Source of the DNA: Gallionella sp.
GTDB lineage: Bacteria; Pseudomonadota; Gammaproteobacteria; Burkholderiales; Gallionellaceae
Reading direction: 5' to 3'
Assembly: GCA_030645535.1 (NCBI GenBank)
Contig: JAUSNM010000021.1
Location: 1-64,000, forward strand
Length of the DNA: 64,000 nt
Part shown: positions 11,280-55,836 of the stretch, one piece after another
Numbering within the stretch: position 1 is the stretch's first letter
Layout of the letters: each line of letters opens with the position of its first letter
Made by a program: the position numbers and the translations under genes
The notes under the pieces: model-generated
Told to the model about the DNA's origin: nothing
The model's input: the letters and a program-made list of their open reading frames with translations, nothing else
The model's database searches: none

Positions 11280-13697
<2,418 letters not shown>

Positions 13698-13807: not shown

Positions 13808-13928
13808 CCACTTCGAATATTGTTATTCAAAATTCTGCAGAAAACCTGCCTGACCTGCAATCAAGCACAAAGTCGCTGTGAAATTGAAAAAATTGGCCAA
13901 ATTGGCAGTACGAAGAAAACGTGCCGTC

Positions 13929-13957
13929 CTGCAAGCTAACAGATACAAGGCTTGCAG
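13929..13957 (+). repeat. 29-bp imperfect palindrome, copy A
   Basis: Arms CTGCAAGC and GCTTGCAG are perfectly complementary around a 13-nt centre (AACAGATACA core). Two more copies in the same orientation lie at 16395 and 22366 and differ at a handful of positions. Confidence 0.75.
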
Positions 13958-14191
13958 GCCAGTCGTGTTAAAAGCGTGCTGTAGTCGTCTGACGCAGGTG
14001 TGTTAAGGGGTAGGTCAGGCTTGACGCTAAATATCGCGTATTCGGCGTTTTACGGCGTTTTGTAATGAATTTTGATAAAAACTAAAAGAAAGCAGTTTGA
14101 AAGAAGCAAATTTTTTAAAATATTTATGCATTGTTCAATACTGACCATAAATTTACATGGCTGACTCAGGCAAAACGGTACCGGGCAAAGA

Positions 14192-15420: not shown

Positions 15421-16149
15421 ATGTCGACAAATAAAAATACTCCTCCTTTGCTAACCCTTTCCGATGAGGATATGGATGAGCTTGGCAACTTCCTGTTGTC
15501 AGATGCCACGTCTGATGAAACGATGATGTTGGATTGCCTTGATGGCTTTCTGACTGCCATCGTCACCGCACCTGTCATGCTCAGCCCCGGTGTATGGCTG
15601 CCGAAGGTGTGGGGCTCGTCAGATAAGGATGAACCAGCGTTTGATAACTATGCACAGGTTGAACGGATCACCAGTCTGATCATGCGGCACCTGAGTAATC
15701 TGGTCGTGAGCCTGCAACAGAATCCGGACGCATGCGAGCCGATTTTCGACAGCGCCGTCTATCCTGACAGCCCGCGAGAATTTGTAGACGGAGAAATGTG
15801 GGCATATGGCTTTATGACGGCCATCAATCTTCAGCGCCAGGATTGGCAGGCAGTTTTTGATGATCCGAATAATGCTGAGCTTTTACGTCCCATTTATTTA
15901 CTGGGCACAGAGGATGTGACGCCGTCAGAAGAGGCGCTGATTGAAACACCGGAACAACGCGAAGAATTATCAAAGCAGATACCTGCCAGCGTCGCCGGGC
16001 TTTATCGGTTCTGGTCACCTGTTCGTCGTGCCGTTACAGATCCTGCTATTCGGCGCGAAATGCCAACAGTTGGACGAAACGAAAAGTGCCCATGTGGAAG
16101 TGGCAGGAAATTCAAGAAGTGTTGTGGTGCAACAACTGTGCTGGAATGA
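15421..16149 (+). CDS. YecA/UPF0149-family protein with C-terminal SEC-C zinc motif
   Basis: 242 residues. The N-terminal two thirds match the UPF0149 (YgfB/YecA) helical domain: the segment [23 protein letters not shown] and the later [18 protein letters not shown]. The C-terminus carries the SEC-C zinc-binding motif [19 protein letters not shown] (cysteines C-x-C...CC), which in SecA mediates SecB or ribosome contact. The precise function of YecA proteins is not firmly known; a ribosome/SecA-related role is an inference from the motif. It lies alone between two copies of the duplicated noncoding segment. Confidence 0.88.
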
Positions 16150-16171
16150 AGCGGAGCGTAATCTATTAATT

Positions 16172-16245
16172 CGTCACACCGGCGAAAGCCGGTGTCCAGC
16201 TAATACAAGATTCGATTCCGGCCTGCGCCGGAATGACAAGATCTA
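16172..16245. repeat. REP-like palindromic repeat
   Basis: CACCGGCGAAAGCCGGTGTCC and a second hairpin ATTCCGGCCTGCGCCGGAAT form the two-hairpin unit of the common GTCATTCCGGCGAAAGCCGG type of dispersed repeat. In copy A (13741) the flanks GTCACACCG and TCTAATAACTG are directly joined, so the unit appears inserted into copy B. Confidence 0.7.
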
Positions 16246-16266
16246 ATAACTGAAATATTCATCTGA

Positions 16267-16297
16267 TGGTCGCGATTTATTTGCGGCCATTTTTTTT
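16267..16297 (+). terminator. Intrinsic terminator (duplicate of the gyrB terminator)
   Basis: TGGTCGC/GCGGCCA stem (one G-T pair) with a 9-nt loop and eight T. It would end transcription from the YecA gene. Confidence 0.8.
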
Positions 16298-16394
16298 GCT
16301 CCGGCAAAAAGCAGACTGGGCTGCATAAAAGCTGAAAATCACCGTAAAAGCGGAAAAATGAGCAAGATTCAGCAGTTCTCAAAAACATGCGGTC

Positions 16395-16423
16395 CTGTAA
16401 GCCAATAGATACACGGCTTGCAG
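16395..16423 (+). repeat. 29-bp imperfect palindrome, copy B
   Basis: Arms CTGTAAGC and GCTTGCAG. It sits just outside the dinG end of the CRISPR locus and matches copies A (13929) and C (22366) at most positions, in the same orientation. Confidence 0.75.
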
Positions 16424-16570
16424 ACCAGGTCTGTCAAAACAGCCATTGAATCGTCTGATGGTGGGGCGGTAAGGGGTCAGGTAGGGATGTCAGGTAAAAT
16501 TTAAAATACGTTGTTTTACGGGGTATTTTGAAAGTTTTTGGAAAAATGGCTTATATGAGCTGATTCTCTG

Positions 16571-18178
16571 TCATTCATCGGCATTGAGGAGTGCAACCAG
16601 ATCAACGAGTGGAAGCGGTGGCCGGGTTGAATGTGCCAGTCGGTGGCAGTTCGCACACAAGACCACGACGTCCTCGATTTTGGTACGTCTCTGACCTTCG
16701 GCAATCGGGTCGAGGTGATGCACGTCCAGCTGCGCATCGACCTTCGGCACGAAGCCACACGCCATGCACTTGCGGCCGTAGTGTTTCAGCGCCCTTTGAC
16801 GGACAGCCGGGTCGCGTTCACTTTTGGATAAAACCACTTCTTTCCTCGCGCCCTCGATATACGTCCTGCGGACTAACCACTCGGCAAAGAAACGCTCAGG
16901 CACGAACCCGACCAGCTTGTCGGCCCGGTCATCCAGTATGTAAACGCTACAGATTGCATCCGGGGTTCTCAGGCCGCGCCCGATGACCTGACGCAAGCGG
17001 CGAATCGCAGTATTGCGCGCATCGAAATAGCTGGTCGTCACATTCCCGTCTATGACCACCGGCTGGCCGAATGGAATGCGCGGCACAATGATCGAACGCC
17101 AGCGCAGCGGCGTATCCAGACCTGCCCACGTGCCGGCAGAAACAAGCATGCCGGTTGCACTCACCCGTCCGGCAGCTGTCGCGGCCGTTTCCTCTGCCGA
17201 CCTGACGACAGCGCCCGGCAGATGTTCACCGAGCAGGGCTGATAACTCGTGCGATGTGGTTGCGACCAGCACGGGCCCGGGCGCCTCATTCGCCATTTGC
17301 ACGACAGCCGCGATCCATTCAGGGCTGTTGATTTTCATCGGCATCATGTGGAAGTCAAGCGCACCATGCCGCTCCGGTTCTATTGCACAGGACAGATGGC
17401 TGATCTTTGCGATGCCCATCGAGTTCTGAAATTCCTTGAAGCTGCCGCCGACAGTCAGCGTGGCGGACACAAATGCCACGTTGCTCATATTGCTGATCTT
17501 CTTCAGCAGGCGACCGGGCAGCTTGTGCGTCAGCAAGATGTCACCGTCGTCGCTGATACCTGCCGACTGATACCACGCGGGTTCCTCAATGGCATCGAGG
17601 ATGATCCGGGCAGCCGCTCTGATTTCCGGTTCCACCACGCGCGGCGGTTTTGCCAGTATCGCCTGCAACGCACTTGTAACGGTCGTCAGGCGGATGCCCA
17701 TACCGGCCAGTTCGGCTTGTGTGATCGTGAAGTCGCTTTGCAATGCCGCCATGTCCGGCAGCTGGTCTGCCTCATCAAACAGCAGGTAGGCGTGCGTGGT
17801 CGAGCCGTTGTATTCGCCGCCCAGGCGCTGGTCGATGATGACGCTGGCGGCAGTACAGAACAATACCTGCGCAGCTATCGCCTCACGTTTGTTTGCTTCG
17901 TAATCTGCCCGGCTTTCGAACATCCGCGCCGGTCGGAACGCGGCGATGCGGGCCGTGCCGCGCGTTGCCGCCAGATCGGATGATGTCAGCATCTGGTCAA
18001 TCAGCTGATGGGTCGGCAGCACGATGGCGACCCGCTGGCCGTATTGAATCAGCGCGGACAGATAGGCGCGGGTTTTACCGATGCCGGTGCCGCCTTCCAG
18101 CAACAACGGGGCGTCACCCGCCGTCATGTGCCTGGCGATTATTTTAGAAAAGTTGCTTTGCTCGGCAGAGCGGAACAT
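16571..18178 (-). CDS. csf4: Type IV CRISPR-associated DinG helicase (Csf4) fused to an HNH nuclease domain
   Basis: 535 residues from ATG 18178, chosen because AAAAAGGAAAATCG precedes it; an upstream in-frame ATG at 18283 would run through parS and the first CRISPR repeat. Residues 1-445 form a superfamily 2, DinG/XPD-like helicase: Walker A GGTGIGKT (29-36), Walker B as FDEADQL (DEAD 135-138), SATL (238-241) and motif VI QVIGRGLR (397-404). Only one cysteine lies between motifs I and II, so the iron-sulphur cluster of E. coli DinG is absent. Residues about 455-520 are a complete HNH domain of the McrA-like kind: C471-x2-C474, HH 487-488, CANCH 508-512 and H516. In type IV-A the helicase unwinds DNA at Csf-complex targets; a fused nuclease suggests cleavage. 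It is downstream of the array on the same strand as the csf genes. Confidence 0.93.
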   Translation of the reverse strand: MFRSAEQSNFSKIIARHMTAGDAPLLLEGGTGIGKTRAYLSALIQYGQRVAIVLPTHQLIDQMLTSSDLAATRGTARIAAFRPARMFESRADYEANKREAIAAQVLFCTAASVIIDQRLGGEYNGSTTHAYLLFDEADQLPDMAALQSDFTITQAELAGMGIRLTTVTSALQAILAKPPRVVEPEIRAAARIILDAIEEPAWYQSAGISDDGDILLTHKLPGRLLKKISNMSNVAFVSATLTVGGSFKEFQNSMGIAKISHLSCAIEPERHGALDFHMMPMKINSPEWIAAVVQMANEAPGPVLVATTSHELSALLGEHLPGAVVRSAEETAATAAGRVSATGMLVSAGTWAGLDTPLRWRSIIVPRIPFGQPVVIDGNVTTSYFDARNTAIRRLRQVIGRGLRTPDAICSVYILDDRADKLVGFVPERFFAEWLVRRTYIEGARKEVVLSKSERDPAVRQRALKHYGRKCMACGFVPKVDAQLDVHHLDPIAEGQRRTKIEDVVVLCANCHRLAHSTRPPLPLVDLVALLNADE

Positions 18179-18214
18179 CGATTTTCCTTTTTTATTGACC
18201 ACGACAGGGTGGTT

Positions 18215-18230
18215 TGTTTCACGTGAAACA
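18215..18230. promoter_or_regulatory. parS centromere site 2, between CRISPR array and csf4
   Basis: TGTTTCACGTGAAACA, a perfect 16-bp parS consensus. It lies 36 bases upstream of the csf4 start codon and 2 bases from the first CRISPR repeat, so ParB loaded here would cover the csf4 upstream region and the array end. Confidence 0.95.
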
Positions 18231-18232
18231 TT

Positions 18233-18586
18233 GTTCCAGTAACCACCCGGGGTGGCTTGATCTTCAGGGTATTCTTCCAGCACCGAACCATTGTTCTAGT
18301 AACCACCCGGGGTGGCTTGATCCCAATGGCATCAGGACAGCAAGATCACCTAGTTCTAGTAACCACCCTTACGTGGGGTGGCTTGATCAGAGCAGATAGA
18401 CGAGTGTCTGACCTTCCAGTTCTAGTAACCACCCATACAGAGGGTGGCTTGATCTTCATCGAAGATCGCACCTGTTTGGTATCAGTTCTAGTAACCACCC
18501 ATACAGAGGGTGGCTTGATCGCTGTAAACGTGCAGCCGGTACACGCCTTGGTTCTAGTAACCACCCATACAGAGGGTGGCTTGATC
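18233..18586 (-). CRISPR. CRISPR array, 6 repeats and 5 spacers
   Basis: Repeats at 18233-18262, 18293-18322, 18353-18388, 18419-18454, 18485-18520 and 18551-18586. Every spacer is exactly 30 nt. The 36-nt repeat on the + strand is GTTCTAGTAA, stem CCACCC, 7-nt loop, stem GGGTGG, tail CTTGATC. The last three repeats are identical; repeat 3 has a different loop (TTACGTG), while repeats 1 and 2 are 30 nt because 6 loop bases are missing; repeat 1 also has one substitution (GTTCC). Degeneration therefore sits at the csf4 end. On the minus strand the stem can extend by a G-U and an A-U pair, leaving an 8-nt 3' part (ACTAGAAC) that fits a Cas6-type 5' handle. This suggests transcription with the csf genes. 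Only 38 bases separate the last repeat from csf2, leaving little room for a leader. Confidence 0.97.
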
Positions 18587-18624
18587 CTGCTAACTGCAAC
18601 GTATTGACTATGCGAAAGATTTCA

Positions 18625-19596
18625 CTATTTTGTCCCGGACAAATCGGTAATAGTCGCCGTTTTCCATGCACCGATGGCAATTTTTTGGGTGAGTATGCCA
18701 TCCACCATAACATCGAATATCCCTTCAATTTCCCCGCAGCCACGGGCGCTTTGTGCGCCCAGAATCGGACGCATCGAGAGTGCGTTCAGCGCCAGTTCTA
18801 TCATAGGCAGATCACGCTCACGGGCATTCTCGATGACCAGACGCCCTTTAAGTTCGATGCCTGCCGGGAGTGCAAAATAGCTGGTCAGCGTGCGCGATGA
18901 GTTGGTCATGTCTCCCATATCGGACTCGTAACGTTCGACAATCCCCTGCGCCGCCAGCAGCGCTGCTTCGAGTTCGGCAAGGTCTTCGCCTGCCTTTTTT
19001 GCCTTGCGTATTCTGGCATCCAGCCCTTTCACCACCGTCAGGGCGGCAGAACGTTTGCTGTTCGCAGCGGAACGCCCCAGATACCTGTCGCGGTCCTCGG
19101 CAGAAATCAAGTCAAGCACGCCGTCGGTATCTTCCAGATCCTTGCGTACCCCGGTGATGACTTCGGGCAGCACGTTGTGTGTCGGCATGAAGTGGGATAC
19201 CAGCAGGCGTGACTTGATGCCCAGACCAGAGCCGAACAGATCAAGTACCGCATTTTCCTCGCGGGTCTGGCGCAACTTGATGAGATCAATATCGTCCTTG
19301 GCTTCGGACGCCGCATCCTGTCCGATCAGGTCAGCGTAAGCTCTTTGCAGGGTGTAGTGATGTCCCTGTTCTGCGGCCTGAGTCATCAGATCTATGACAA
19401 TGGCACGGCGCAGAAAGCCGCGCAACGTGGTGGCGGGCAGGTAGCCGGTCTGCCGTTTGTTGCCGTCCTCGTCGATGCCGCGAGTGACAACGGGGAAGTT
19501 GTTATATTTGTTGCCCATCTGACCTTCGGCGATGGGCATGGTGATGGACAAAGGGCCTACGGTAGTGAGGGTGGCGTTGATGACAATTGTTTTCAC
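18625..19596 (-). CDS. csf2: Type IV CRISPR Cas7-family backbone protein Csf2
   Basis: 323 residues, the usual size for Csf2, which polymerises along the crRNA to form the effector backbone. The N-terminus has the RAMP-like strand INATLTTVGPLSITMPIAEG and the family-typical GYLPATTLRGFLRRAIV; the C-terminal half has SRTLTSYFALPAGIELKGRL and the glycine-rich segment ILGAQSARGCGEIEG. A charged helical insert lies at about 185-230. The start is GTG at 19596 with an excellent AAAGGAGATACC ahead of it, 10 bases after the Cas6 stop. Last csf gene before the array. Confidence 0.92.
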   Translation of the reverse strand: MKTIVINATLTTVGPLSITMPIAEGQMGNKYNNFPVVTRGIDEDGNKRQTGYLPATTLRGFLRRAIVIDLMTQAAEQGHHYTLQRAYADLIGQDAASEAKDDIDLIKLRQTREENAVLDLFGSGLGIKSRLLVSHFMPTHNVLPEVITGVRKDLEDTDGVLDLISAEDRDRYLGRSAANSKRSAALTVVKGLDARIRKAKKAGEDLAELEAALLAAQGIVERYESDMGDMTNSSRTLTSYFALPAGIELKGRLVIENARERDLPMIELALNALSMRPILGAQSARGCGEIEGIFDVMVDGILTQKIAIGAWKTATITDLSGTK

Positions 19597-19606
19597 GGTA
19601 TCTCCT

Positions 19607-20101
19607 TTAAATTACCAACATGCCAAACCCGAAAGCACGGGCCTTGTTGCCGACGCCATTGGCGACAGCGTTGTTGAAACGTTCGACATCCGTGACTTTC
19701 AGGACGCCGGTGAAGTCAGTCTGATCAATCGTGAACTGCCGGTCACCCGCTTCGACTGTCAGCATCTGGGCGGTGCAATGCACCGTGATGATCGAAAAGC
19801 CATGCGCGTTCCCTTGTCGTTCCAGCCACTCATGCCGGCTGCGCCAGTCCGTGGTGCGGAAGTAGAGGTGCCGGCCCTTGAGCTTCTTGCCGACGCAGGC
19901 GCGCAGTTCGAAACCGATGATGTCACCCGGAGCGAGAGTACGCAGCGGACGCTGCTCGACATCAAGCTGTTTGTCCGTTCGCAGCAGCAGGTGGTCGCCA
20001 CAGTCTGCGAACAATATCTTCTCACTTCGGGCCAATCCGGCGGCGATCCGGTGCAGCGCATAACCGCGCAGGCTGGCCGGCTTTTGCATTATGAAGTCCA
20101 T
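19607..20101 (-). CDS. Cas6e-like CRISPR RNA endonuclease
   Basis: 164 residues from ATG 20101, in a TGATG overlap with the preceding gene and with GAGGAGGGG ahead of it. The C-terminus KARAFGFGMLVI is the glycine-rich loop ending of Cas6e/CasE proteins, and HGFSIITVHC in the middle fits the second ferredoxin-like domain. A histidine near the N-terminus (YALHRIAAG) is a candidate catalytic residue, as in Cas6e. Its expected job is to cut the repeat hairpin to make crRNA; in type IV-A loci this role is filled by Csf5 or by Cas6e-type proteins. I assign it to the Cas6e type rather than classical Csf5, from the C-terminal motif. Confidence 0.85.
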   Translation of the reverse strand: MDFIMQKPASLRGYALHRIAAGLARSEKILFADCGDHLLLRTDKQLDVEQRPLRTLAPGDIIGFELRACVGKKLKGRHLYFRTTDWRSRHEWLERQGNAHGFSIITVHCTAQMLTVEAGDRQFTIDQTDFTGVLKVTDVERFNNAVANGVGNKARAFGFGMLVI

Positions 20102-20550
20102 CACCCCTCCTCTTTTTTCAGTTTCCACAACACCTTGTGCGTCTTGCAGCCGTCCTTCTCCGGTGGTTTGGTGAAGTCGAATGTCTCGACACCCGCTGCC
20201 GAGCAGATGCGCACCTGACGCAGATCGAAGGTGCGAAACAGGTTGCCGACCGGCACGGGTTTTTTGGTGAACTCAATGAACATGCGCGGCGTGCAATCCC
20301 AGTTTTCAAGCTCGGCCAGAAACGCCTCGTAGCGCGTTTGCTTGCTGTACTCGATACCACCAGCTGCGAGTTCGAACTGCATGGTCGATTTGCCGGGTCT
20401 GATGACCGCCCAGCCAGATGCGATCCGTTGCGGGATACCCGGCTTTTTCATTTTGTGACCGGATGAAAGAGCGTGACGGGCGTCATAAGCTGCATCGCCG
20501 GTCTGCACGACCAGATAGCGCCCGAAGTTTTCATTGAAGAAACTCAGCAT
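20101..20550 (-). CDS. Putative short Csf1-like subunit of the type IV complex
   Basis: 149 residues with a very strong ribosome binding site (AAGGAGGAAAG before ATG). Position in the operon and the segment with TPRMFIEFTKKP followed by VGNLFRTFDLRQVRI resemble the C-terminal domain of Csf1, the type IV large-subunit equivalent. Csf1 proteins are usually over 200 residues with an N-terminal four-cysteine zinc ribbon; here the only cysteines (C87, C115, C136) are scattered and no CxxC pair exists. Either this is a shortened Csf1 or a different small subunit. The identification rests mainly on context. It overlaps the Cas6 gene by one base (TGATG), so the two are translationally coupled. Confidence 0.55.
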   Translation of the reverse strand: MLSFFNENFGRYLVVQTGDAAYDARHALSSGHKMKKPGIPQRIASGWAVIRPGKSTMQFELAAGGIEYSKQTRYEAFLAELENWDCTPRMFIEFTKKPVPVGNLFRTFDLRQVRICSAAGVETFDFTKPPEKDGCKTHKVLWKLKKEEG

Positions 20551-20810
20551 CTTTCCTCCTTAAACCTTAAAACCTCATTTCATCCACGAAATGTTTCTCG
20601 CAGGGATATTGGCAAAAGCCAATAACTCGCAAAGGCACGAAATGGAGTAAGCAGGCAATCCGCAGAGCGGATGCTCGCAAATTCACTAAAGAAAACAATT
20701 GATTACATAAATTGATCAACTCACCCAACAGGTAATACAACAAATAAGGACATGCATTTGAATTTGTTCGTGTTTCTTCGTGTGTTTCGTGGACAACAGC
20801 TTTTTCCAGG
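20551..20810. other. 260-bp gap inside the csf operon
   Basis: AT-rich, no convincing gene. It contains degenerate short tandem motifs (TTCGTGTTTCTTCGTGTGTTTCGTGG) of a type common in intergenic DNA of environmental proteobacteria. It separates csf3 from the tightly packed csf1-like/cas6/csf2 block, so a second promoter for that block may lie here; I see no strong -35/-10 pair. Confidence 0.5.
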
Positions 20811-21434
20811 TTAAACGGGTGCGTAACACGCGGTTCGGTGAACTGGATTCCAGTATGCCGGACGCCAGGCGGCGTCAACAACGGGATGCGAGGTGTCGCC
20901 CTTGAACATGGATATTGGCACCGGGCGCAGCGGCTCACCGAACGGGCCTTCGATCCCGTCGAGTTCATCCGCTTCGATCTGCCAGTGCGACACGCGGCCA
21001 AAACCGGATGCGCGATGTTTGCCGATGAACTGAACCGGGGAAACCAGCCGCGCAATGTGATCCGCATCGCCCTCTGCATACCAGGTGACCGTCGGCGCTG
21101 TCAGCTGAGTGTAGCTGTTCATTACGTTGGTCAAAGACGTATCGAACTTGCGGTGCAAATGCCCGTGGTTGTTCTTCAGAATCAGCTCAGGGTTGATGCT
21201 GTGGCCGGGGCGGAGGGCTGCGATGAACGAGATCGTTTCGCGACTCGATTCCAAGATGGCTGCGCTGGCGTGATGCAGGCCGTCTGTCTGGCGGATCGGA
21301 ATAGCGGCATGTGCGGCTTCCACGTCTTGCAGTTCATCGAACAACAATGCCGCAAGAAGCCCGTCCAGCGTCATATACCCTCCTCCCGTGACGAGTGGAG
21401 CTATCAGATGCGCAGTTACTTTGATTCTGTCCAT
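20811..21434 (-). CDS. csf3: Type IV CRISPR Cas5-family protein Csf3
   Basis: 207 residues. The N-terminus IKVTAHLIAPLVTGGGYMTLDGLLAALLF is the characteristic first strand and helix of Csf3 (positions 4-32, shown here only as its recognisable pattern TLDGLLA). A glycine-rich loop KHRASGFGRVSHWQIE lies near residue 140. Csf3 caps the crRNA 5' handle and contacts Csf1. The ATG at 21434 follows AAGGATTACGG. It is the first gene of the csf operon on the minus strand, separated from the rest by 260 bases. No cas1/cas2 is nearby. Confidence 0.85.
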   Translation of the reverse strand: MDRIKVTAHLIAPLVTGGGYMTLDGLLAALLFDELQDVEAAHAAIPIRQTDGLHHASAAILESSRETISFIAALRPGHSINPELILKNNHGHLHRKFDTSLTNVMNSYTQLTAPTVTWYAEGDADHIARLVSPVQFIGKHRASGFGRVSHWQIEADELDGIEGPFGEPLRPVPISMFKGDTSHPVVDAAWRPAYWNPVHRTACYAPV

Positions 21435-21611
21435 CCGTAATCCTTATCGGGATTGAGGGTGGATGAATGCTACGCCACTGTGCGGAAATAACCATCAGGA
21501 AAGTCCGAGCAGCATCAGGCGGTGGCCCGGGCGGATGGGTGACGCTTCACCGATGAATTGACTGAAGAAATCTTAGAATAACTTGAGGCGAGCCTGAGCG
21601 GCTCTGGAGAA

Positions 21612-21634
21612 GATGCGGCAGGCGCTGCCGCATC
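21612..21634 (-). terminator. Hairpin after the nitroreductase gene
   Basis: GATGCGGCAG and CTGCCGCATC form a perfect 10-bp stem with a 3-nt loop, 11 bases past the nitroreductase stop. The T-rich tail on the minus strand is short (TTCT), so termination is probable but not certain. Confidence 0.6.
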
Positions 21635-21645
21635 GGTTGCTAAAA

Positions 21646-22248
21646 TCAGAAATGGTTGTTGATCACCACCTCGTTCATCGGCAATTGCCCGCCGCGAGGC
21701 CAGGCTTCCTTAGTGCTCTTGCCGACCACCGTCATCATCGTGATCACATAATCCTGCGGCAAGTTGATGAGTTTGCCGACCGCATCGTAGTCGAAGCCGT
21801 CCATCGGGCATGAATCCAAACCCATCTCTCTGGCTGCCAGCATCAGCGTCATGGCCGCGATGCCGCATGAGCGCATCGCCTCGTCACGTTGCACCTGTTC
21901 ACGACCGGCGTAGTACTGGTCGATGGCGGGAACCATGAAATCCCGTATCGGCTTTGCCGCATTGGCCCAATAGCGGGCAGTATCCTTTTCCCAGGATTTG
22001 GTGTCGGCACACAGCACGATCAACAAGGAGGCATCCGTTACTTGCGCCTGGTCCCAGGCCGCCTTGCGGATTTCGCTGCGCAACCCGGCATCGCGTACCA
22101 GCACGAAGCGCCAGTTCTGGATATTGAATGCGGTGGGTGAGAGCATGGCAAGCGACATCAGCTTCTCGATTTGTGCTTCTGTCATGCGGTGTTCCGGATC
22201 GTACGACTTAACGGCGCGGCGGGTTTCAATGGCGGTAGTAACAATCAT
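21646..22248 (-). CDS. Nitroreductase-family FMN oxidoreductase
   Basis: 200 residues, NAD(P)H-dependent FMN enzyme fold. Motifs are ETRRAVKSYDPEHRMTE at the N-terminus, SPTAFNIQNWRFVLVRD (FMN phosphate contact) and the C-terminal WPRGGQLPMNEVV. Substrate is unknown; members reduce nitro compounds, quinones or flavins. A TAAACCAGGAGAG ribosome binding site precedes the ATG. It lies between the CRISPR locus and copy C of the 29-bp repeat, so it may travel with the accessory block. Confidence 0.9.
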   Translation of the reverse strand: MIVTTAIETRRAVKSYDPEHRMTEAQIEKLMSLAMLSPTAFNIQNWRFVLVRDAGLRSEIRKAAWDQAQVTDASLLIVLCADTKSWEKDTARYWANAAKPIRDFMVPAIDQYYAGREQVQRDEAMRSCGIAAMTLMLAAREMGLDSCPMDGFDYDAVGKLINLPQDYVITMMTVVGKSTKEAWPRGGQLPMNEVVINNHF

Positions 22249-22365
22249 TTTTACTCTCCTGGTTTAAATTTGGCGGATTCAACTCTGAGGCGCAACTTGC
22301 GGGACACAATACTATCATCTGGTTGATATACATACTGCAATAGTGGCGTCTTGTGACCACCTGCC

Positions 22366-22394
22366 CTGTAAGTCAATGAATACGGGGCTTGCAG
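22366..22394 (+). repeat. 29-bp imperfect palindrome, copy C
   Basis: Begins CTGTAAGTC and ends GGCTTGCAG. It lies in the 386-bp gap between the nitroreductase and dgt; besides this element and parS site 3, nothing gene-like is seen in that gap. Same orientation as copies A and B. Confidence 0.7.
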
Positions 22395-22564
22395 AGGCGG
22401 CCTCTCTAAACGCGCGATAGCCGCCTGGCAGGTGCTCGGCATGGGGCAAGCCAGGGAAGCGAAGAATAAATCGATTTCTCGAGGCTGGTTTGCCGAGTGA
22501 TTTGATAACTATCTGAATGTATTGTATTTAATATATTAACGGTCTGGCAGGGTGAGTTGAGACG

Positions 22565-22580
22565 TGTTTCACGTGAAACA
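22565..22580. promoter_or_regulatory. parS centromere site 3
   Basis: TGTTTCACGTGAAACA, perfect consensus, 4.3 kb from site 2 and 11.3 kb from site 1; in the gap upstream of the CRISPR block and just beyond the dgt stop codon. Confidence 0.95.
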
Positions 22581-22634
22581 TGAGCGACAACACCGGGGCA
22601 GGTTAGTCGCAAAAAGTGCTTAATGCATTCATGA

Positions 22635-23771
22635 TTAAATCGAGTCTTCTTCCACGGCGAAGATGCGTTTATGTTCACGTATCGCATAACGATCCGTCAT
22701 GCCGGCGATGTAGTCAGCCACCACCCGCGCACGACCTGATTCATCCCGCGTTTCATGCGATTGAAACTGCGTTGGCAGCAAACGGCTGTCTTCCATGAAG
22801 ACAGCAAACAGCTCACTTATGATGCGATGCGCCTTGGCACTCATGCGCATCACGCGGTAGTGACGATACAGATGCATATGTAAAAACTTCTTAAGCTCGC
22901 GTTGCTGCATAACAAGCGCGCTGCTGAAGGCGATCAGCGCGGGCGCGCTGCGCACATCTTCCAGGGTCTCAAGGTTTTGTGCGGCAATATTGGCGGCACT
23001 CTGCCGGATCAGATCCGTCACCAGCGTATTGATCATGCGCCGCACGGTTTCATGCACCACGCGCCGCCCGGTCAAATCAGGATAAGCCACGCGCACCGCC
23101 TGCAGATGCTCAGCCACCAATGGCACGGCGGCGAGTTGCTCCAGCGTAATTAGCCCTGAACGCAAGCCGTCATCCACATCATGATTGTTATATGCGATTT
23201 CATCGGCCAGATTGGCAATTTGCGCTTCCAGCGAAGGGCGGCGATTATTCAGGAAACGTTCGCCCAGCTCGCCTAATTGCGCTGCCTGTTCCATACGGCA
23301 GTGCTTGAGTATGCCCTCGCGCGTCTCGAAGCACAGATTAAGTCCGTCGAATGTCGCGTAACGTTCCTCAAGGACATCCACCACGCGCACCGATTGAAGA
23401 TTATGCTCAAAGCCGCCATACGCTTTCATGCAGTCGTTCAGCGCATCTTGCCCTGCATGACCAAACGGCGTATGTCCCAGGTCGTGCGCCAGAGAAATCG
23501 CCTCGGCCAGATCTTCATTCAGATGCAGACGGCGCGCAATCGAGCGTGCGATTTGCGCGACTTCGATGCTATGGGTCAGGCGCGTACGAAACAGGTCACC
23601 TTCATGATTCACGAATACCTGAGTTTTGTATTCGAGGCGGCGAAACGCGCCGGAATGAATGATGCGATCGCGGTCGCGCTGAAATTCGCTGCGCCCCTGC
23701 GGGGCGGATTCGGGAGATTTTCTGCCGCGCGAGTTAGCCTCAGAGACCGCATAGCTGGCAAGCTCAGTCAT
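22635..23771 (-). CDS. dgt: Deoxyguanosinetriphosphate triphosphohydrolase-like protein (dNTPase)
   Basis: 378 residues, HD-domain metal-dependent enzyme that splits dNTPs into nucleoside and triphosphate. Motifs are [34 protein letters not shown] (first histidine) and the HD pair in [19 protein letters not shown], then [16 protein letters not shown]. The length and lack of the E. coli-type extension fit the Dgt-like type 2 family. The start overlaps the aroB stop by 8 bases, continuing the pil-aroKB-dgt transcription unit. Confidence 0.93.
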
Positions 23772-34760: not shown

Positions 34761-34852
34761 GTGAATGACGATAAATCATTCCACGTTTCTCCTCCCTGAG
34801 CGTGTCTTAACCTTGTTAAGATTTTGGCCCCCACTGGTTGGGGGCTTTTTTT
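34761..34852 (+). ncRNA. Candidate small RNA divergent from hemB
   Basis: No coding gene reads into the intrinsic terminator at 34827-34852 (GCCCCC/GGGGGC stem, 7-nt loop, seven T) on the + strand, so a separate transcript is implied. Upstream are a 10-bp hairpin with one bulge (34759-34786, ACGTGAATGA pairing TCATTCCACGT) and a small hairpin CTTAAC-CTT-GTTAAG (34806-34820). The linker TTCTCCTCCCTGAG (34787-34800) is unpaired and contains CUCCUCC, an anti-Shine-Dalgarno-like seed. Length would be about 90 nt. Family not recognised. Confidence 0.6.
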
Positions 34853-34883
34853 GTCTGCTTGTTTTTTATCTTTCACCGCCAAC

Positions 34884-55746: not shown

Positions 55747-55759
55747 AACAAATCTGCAA

Positions 55760-55836
55760 ATGGCAAACCTGTTGAAAAGCAGGGACGCAAAGTTACCGGT
55801 CTAAGGGATTTATCCTATGACAGCGGGATCGCCAGA
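55760..55836 (+). promoter_or_regulatory. Cyclic-di-GMP-I (GEMM) riboswitch
   Basis: The aptamer core is recognisable in order: GGCAAACC, GAAA tetraloop-receptor side (TTGAAAAGCA), GGGACGCAAAG, CCGGTCTAAGG, CCTATGACAGC, GGGATCGCC, with closing stem TGGC (55761-55764)/GCCA (55831-55834). Downstream, AAAACGGG can pair with CCCGGTTTT (hairpin ending in TTTT, 55838-55870) or AACGGGA with TCCCGTT (55840-55884). These are mutually exclusive and suit an expression platform. The element is 190 bases upstream of the small membrane protein gene at 55944. The remainder of 55550-55943 holds its promoter and no other gene. Confidence 0.93.

Follow-up and report, generated by a model that had tools for sequence, protein, structure and literature searches.

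Analysis of a 64,000-nucleotide (nt) stretch of Gallionella sp. DNA (contig JAUSNM010000021.1 of assembly GCA_030645535.1, positions 1 to 64,000; hereafter the window) revealed a locus at 16571 to 21434 that, judged from its sequence, is a type IV-A clustered regularly interspaced short palindromic repeats (CRISPR)-Cas system of the DinG-HNH variant, in which the helicase Csf4 (CasDinG) carries an HNH nuclease domain, and a further example of the kind described in 2023. A preliminary description of this DNA had referred to such a report; it is that of the Sulfitobacter sp. JL08 system (PMC10910872; here and below, statements on published work refer to the available parts of the papers cited). 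The target-degrading mechanism suggested in that description is already published for the Sulfitobacter system, where it was shown experimentally, and by spacing the residues needed there appear to be kept here. By homology, we consider it very probable that the window system carries out RNA-guided, helicase-driven shredding of its targets.

The DinG-HNH locus

The block extends from 21434 down to 16571 on the minus strand and contains, in this order, csf3, a gene in the csf1 position, cas6e, csf2, the CRISPR array and csf4, all five frames being open. All of the genes named in the preliminary description, which had proposed a complete type IV locus on a single strand, are present at these positions, as follows (aa, amino acids).

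20811-21434, minus strand: csf3, cas5-like, 207 aa; PADLOC Csf3_0_IV, 3.8e-39
20101-20550, minus strand: gene in the csf1 position (cas8-like), 149 aa; named by position only, with orthologues in the relative loci L099, L100 and L101
19607-20101, minus strand: cas6e-like CRISPR RNA (crRNA) endonuclease gene, 164 aa from ATG 20101; Pfam CRISPR_assoc, 3.1e-19
18625-19596, minus strand: csf2, cas7-like backbone gene, 323 aa; PADLOC Csf2_0_IV, 5e-40
18233-18586, minus strand: CRISPR array, six clear repeats and five spacers of exactly 30 nt
18586-18551, 18520-18485, 18454-18419 and 18388-18353, minus strand: 36-nt repeats, array units 1-4
18322-18293 and 18262-18233, minus strand: 30-nt repeats with a shortened loop, array units 5-6
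18190-18217, minus strand: decayed seventh repeat at the trailer end, found by local alignment to four repeats
16571-18178, minus strand: csf4, CasDinG-HNH helicase-nuclease, 535 aa; PADLOC Csf4_2_IVA1, 1.6e-91
16628-16768, minus strand: HNH domain of csf4, residues 471-517; Pfam HNH, 31.8 bits against a cut-off of 21.4

The Csf4 protein joins a helicase with intact motifs to an HNH domain. In addition to the PADLOC assignment, Pfam DEAD and HNH scored above their cut-offs and Helicase_C_2 slightly below (24.3 bits against 25.3), and these family matches, together with the residues, support the DinG-HNH identity that the preliminary description had given to the protein. The HNH residues listed there (C471/C474, H487/H488, C508/C511, H512 and H516) are all present, and H487, H488, D503, N510, H512, H516, C471 and C508, as well as the helicase residues K35, D135, E136 and R401, are invariant in all four DinG-HNH proteins compared; C474 lies outside this invariant set, and L100 and L101 have a histidine in place of C511. 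In all six protein pairs, nonsynonymous differences in the HNH part were proportionally fewer than synonymous ones, the synonymous sites being at or close to saturation. When the four proteins were combined into a profile, its top match was the solved type IV-A3 DinG chain 8s35_M (9.6e-13), which also came first (E 6.8e-11, at a template modelling score of only 0.27) in a structure search with the weak AlphaFold model of Csf4. The HNH domain was modelled better than the whole protein, with mean predicted local distance difference test (pLDDT) values of 85, 84, 73, 48, 81, 71 and 79 for successive ten-residue blocks from 461 to 530, and comprised a strand (484-488), a second strand (504-508) and a helix (509-515). 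The longest open reading frame of csf4 (GTG 18283) enters the array, whereas ATG 18178 yields the 535-aa protein and agrees with the starts of its relatives.

Of the remaining cas genes, three were assigned to known families. A profile of Csf2 and two orthologues matched the solved type IV Csf2 chain 8rc2_A (1.7e-12), and Csf3 has orthologues in L099 (54% identity) and L101 (43%). The Cas6e protein scored 49.1 bits with NCBIfam casE, above the cut-off of 45.2; its reading frame reaches 20128, but the start at 20101, which overlaps the csf1 stop, is better by alignment. Because the NCBIfam models for csf2, csf3 (cas5_csf3) and csf4 (cas_csf4) gave 29.2, 42.4 and 40.7 bits, far under their cut-offs of 130, 140 and 400, we regard the window genes as diverged members of these families. 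For the gene in the csf1 position, the preliminary description was correct in so far as a conserved gene occupies that place, with orthologues in L099 (46%), L100 (57%) and L101 (57%) that adjoin other csf genes or dinG; the Csf1 label itself follows from position and has no family match. None of the PADLOC families matched the protein or its three orthologues, a profile of the four proteins retrieved no convincing solved structure (best E 0.87) and the AlphaFold model of the window protein was poor (pLDDT 45). Between csf3 and this gene lies a 260-bp gap (20551-20810) with no recognised gene, which is absent in L099; short pieces of it recur in L022 and L122. A search of 16100-22700 with Rfam found no match at E up to 1.

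The six repeats reported for the array are clear, and a decayed seventh can be added to them. Repeats 1 to 3, at the leader end, are identical over 36 nt, repeat 4 differs in the loop, and repeats 5 and 6 have a loop six bases shorter. Four repeats were folded: the two full ones formed an eight-pair hairpin that was equalled by 3 and 7 of 200 shuffles, and the two shortened ones formed a seven-pair stem that did not stand out from shuffled sequence (equalled by 63 and 47 of 200). Of 2000 mononucleotide shuffles, between 1 and 5 attained each of the alignment scores of the decayed seventh repeat, which shares 13 identical bases with the last repeat of the L099 array.

Relatives, targets and mechanism

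Scans with the Csf4 protein alone gave 15 stretches in genome contigs and one in viral contigs, none of them confirmed. An alignment of Csf4 with three CasDinGs (A1) recovered at least 19 relatives among 593 stretches of genome contigs, including at least three near-full-length relatives that share 57, 57 and 56% identity with the window protein over the alignment: L099, from an uncultured alphaproteobacterium, L100, at a contig end in a Rubrivivax metagenome-assembled genome (MAG), and L101, from Pelomonas sp. UHG3, the hosts of L100 and L101 being Betaproteobacteria. Fifteen other matches among those listed were set aside as partial or distant helicase matches. A 64-residue match at 1978-2169 of L102, in a Pseudomonadales MAG, marks a decayed DinG-HNH-like gene, and no other window csf protein matched there. 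Gene order in L099 is that of the window, and in L101 it is cas6-csf2-array-csf3-csf1-dinG. The array of L099 has 17 repeats and that of L101 has 20 by pattern plus a diverged one within the eighteenth unit (about 21), with a period of 66 in these relatives except for two units of 65 in L099.

Mobile elements yielded partial matches. In viral contigs, the A1 alignment gave only one partial match from 271 stretches and the repeat pattern gave none. In plasmids, the csf1 search found nothing, and none of 85 records matching Csf4 covered 80% of the protein; the HNH part accounted for 37 of the 40 listed and the helicase part for three. In phages there were two partial records only. At E 1e-20, the Csf4 family was present in one of 398 genomes of the phylum and one of 399 of the order, the window's own genome each time, and the DinG-HNH alignment matched one of 399 genomes of the family of L101 and one of 385 of the class of L099, only the centre genome in each case (these samples can overlap). 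At the looser threshold of E 0.001, 37 of 61 genomes matched, and the listed matches, bar the window's own, extend over no more than roughly a fifth of the protein; no near-full-length match was found in any of 60 relatives, 36 of them congeneric. From these counts in the sampled genomes, we infer that the system is a recent or patchily kept acquisition in the genus.

A likely target was found for one relative. Spacer 4487-4516 of L101 is identical to a conserved segment of a phage cytosine methyltransferase gene that occurs in phages of many hosts. With the L101 spacers as queries, a limit of E 1 gave 135 phage records, and the 15 listed all belong to this spacer; five of these 15 are identical to it, two being copies of one phage and one being annotated only as a hypothetical protein. 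The same spacer also has a 100% match in a Marinobacter plasmid named phiTHAF39. Nineteen plasmid records matched L101 spacers, two of them this spacer (E 6e-5 and 0.03), and the remaining listed matches, at E 0.1, were judged to be chance, as were those of the L099 spacers (two phage and three plasmid records at E 0.3). The 5' flank of the L101 protospacer was CCC in all seven places fetched, which fits the published YCN protospacer adjacent motif (PAM), with the limits that the seven flanks belong to one conserved gene and are not independent, and that the repeat was counted as 36 nt ending in C, the base before the spacer being C in both repeat and target. The match of this spacer in a relative points to phages as one kind of target of such systems.

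The sequence supports four named cas genes, a conserved fifth in the csf1 position, an array of 36-nt repeats and 30-nt spacers, and intact helicase motifs and HNH residues. We favor target shredding and, extrapolating from the tested Sulfitobacter system, propose the following mechanism. Cas6 would cut the array transcript; a complex of the crRNA with Csf1, Csf2, Csf3 and Cas6 would form an R-loop next to a 5' YCN-type PAM. CasDinG-HNH would then load on the displaced strand and run 5' to 3', and its HNH domain would cut both strands during translocation, leading to Cas3-like shredding of the invading DNA.

Several observations weigh against this proposal. The protein in the csf1 position matched no PADLOC, Pfam or NCBIfam model at E up to 1, the AlphaFold model of the whole Csf4 protein was poor (mean pLDDT 54), and the CCC flanks, as noted, are not independent. 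No convincing target of the five window spacers emerged from 50,697 phage records, 72,556 plasmid records or the window's own genome; the hits to one phage and two plasmid records (E about 3) and to three stretches of 17-20 bases in the own genome (E 2.9-5.4) were judged to be chance. Cas1 was not found in the own genome, which is 86.6% complete, and the window array may therefore not be growing. The genome of L101, despite its long array, likewise had no detected Cas1, and those of L099 and L100 have one Cas1 match each, distant from the csf loci.

One alternative is that the locus is a decaying remnant, with genes still open and a short array that is no longer extended and gives little or no protection. 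The six clear repeats, compared with the much longer arrays of L099 and L101, the two loop-shortened repeats and the decayed seventh, the missing Cas1 and spacer matches, the 260-bp gap not seen in L099, and the decay of a dinG in another lineage (L102) are all in keeping with such a fate, but five open cas frames with their catalytic residues kept, three identical repeats at the leader end and the Cas1-less L101 genome with its long array make us regard it as unlikely. A second alternative is that the system works mainly in the classical type IV-A mode, in which the helicase would bring about silencing or plasmid interference and the HNH domain would do no more than aid DNA binding. Type IV-A systems without a nuclease do act independently of one (PMC11519345); however, HNH mutants of the Sulfitobacter system lost interference, cutting was seen in vitro (PMC10910872), and the residues concerned are invariant here, which renders a mainly classical mode very improbable.

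Least probable of all, in our judgment, is that the block belongs to another organism and was joined to the window by mis-assembly or contamination. In its favor, the genome is in 116 contigs and incomplete, and no near-full-length csf4 match was found in the 60 relatives; yet the block lies inside a 98,962-base contig between gyrB and dgt genes that match those of the genus (up to 97% and 91%, respectively), GC content is even from 14 to 28 kb, and parS is of the type seen in the genus. Target shredding by a resident DinG-HNH system remains our preferred reading.

Origin-proximal setting and a parS site in the array

The chromosomal, origin-proximal placement given in the preliminary description agrees with the markers dnaA (8143), dnaN (10140) and gyrB (11319), which occur in the same order in congeners; the csf4 end of the locus is about 7 kb from dnaA. 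The stretch between gyrB and dgt also holds genes that, from their sequences, we take to be dus, a UPF0149-like gene and a nitroreductase-like gene. Three sites in the window match what we take to be the parS consensus.

11280-11295: parS, one base off, before gyrB
18215-18230, no strand assigned: parS-type palindrome, perfect, 16 bp, flanked by repeat 6 and the decayed seventh repeat where the last spacer would lie, upstream of csf4
22565-22580: parS, perfect, before the end of dgt

These were the sites found in the window at up to two mismatches, where 0.03 would be expected, and no others turned up in the full genome when one mismatch was allowed. At least one parS was present in all 41 genomes of the genus that were examined, own included, and the own genome has two ParB-family genes above cut-off. 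Among 17 relative stretches, parS occurred at dnaN-gyrB in all 12 with gyrB and at the trmE end in all 12 with trmE, with a third parS downstream of gyrB in four of the 12 holding gyrB; in the window, no parS was found at trmE within four mismatches. The examined loci of L099 to L102 had no parS, and a literature search with parS and CRISPR terms returned nothing on parS in a CRISPR array, as judged by titles and the opening lines of abstracts.

The parS site in the array is an oddity concrete enough to be tested. We considered whether the locus had been inserted next to a host parS, but no empty site could be defined because dus, the UPF0149 gene and the nitroreductase gene were found in none of the 17 relative stretches. 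The gyrB and csf4 sites have 20 bases in common, in equal orientation to the gene, and recombination with the gyrB parS is a candidate source of the csf4 site. That the site was captured by chance, through recombination near the origin, is a simpler reading than an action of ParB on csf4. A bolder proposal, which we think improbable, is that the site is no accident: host ParB would bind it and spread over csf4 and the array, and the partition complex would determine how a self-sufficient, DNA-shredding CRISPR system at the origin is expressed or where it is placed.

Copies of a diverged dispersed repeat lie on either side of the csf block (16394-16486, 22357-22476 and 13918-14052), and this repeat also occurs downstream of gyrB in L078, L082, L083, L084 and L093. 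A parS follows within about 90-360 bases in L078, L082, L084 and at the window copy 22357, and not at the other copies. Elsewhere in the window, Rfam identified a c-di-GMP-I riboswitch and an anti-hemB RNA (55752-55836; 34780-34854).

Comparison with known systems

DinG-HNH systems are rare. The subgroup has been defined, with the order cas5-cas8-cas6-cas7-array-dinG that the window also shows, and the named examples are Sulfitobacter JL08 and, as a second case, Nordella sp. HKS 07 (PMC11981726). To these the present analysis adds the loci of the window, L099 and L101, each with five genes and an array, together with L100, which is truncated by the end of its contig, and the remnant L102. They provide a modest set of aligned proteins from which mutants can be chosen, a second gene order (L101) and, in one relative, a phage target with a PAM-consistent flank. 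No match named Sulfitobacter JL08 was among the csf4 plasmid and genome contig matches listed.

The Sulfitobacter system requires all five of its proteins, depletes 5' YCN PAMs and loses interference upon mutation of D139/E140 or of H497/D514/H523; its processed crRNAs have 30-nt spacers, and in vitro it cuts linear targets one way, which was read as 5'-3' movement on the non-target strand (PMC10910872). The window locus shares with it the five cas genes, that for csf1 by position, the C-terminal HNH on DinG, the gene order and the 30-nt spacers. By spacing, D135-E136 correspond to D139 and E140, and H487/H488, D503 and H512 to H497, D514 and H523: D503 and H512 are nine residues apart, as are D514 and H523, and, because the interval between the first histidine and the aspartate is one or two residues different, the counterpart of H497 may be either H487 or H488. 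The two systems differ in host; the loop-shortened trailer repeats and the trailer parS of the window locus are possible further differences.

Type IV-A systems with an HNH-less CasDinG (plasmid loci L095, L096 and L097; PDB 8s35, 7xf0 and 8e2w) have Csf2, Cas6 and the DinG core in common with the window. In contrast to its 535-aa protein, which is shorter in the middle, the CasDinGs of the three plasmid loci lack HNH, are 698-743 aa long and share 23-26% identity with the window DinG in alignment A1; the HNH domain of the DinG-HNH type, when grafted on another CasDinG, is reported to make that protein delete DNA (PMC12714560). In its proposed working, the window system would most resemble type I systems with Cas3, which also combine a helicase and a nuclease to shred DNA from an R-loop, although there the nuclease is unrelated and the helicase only distantly related (PMC10910872).

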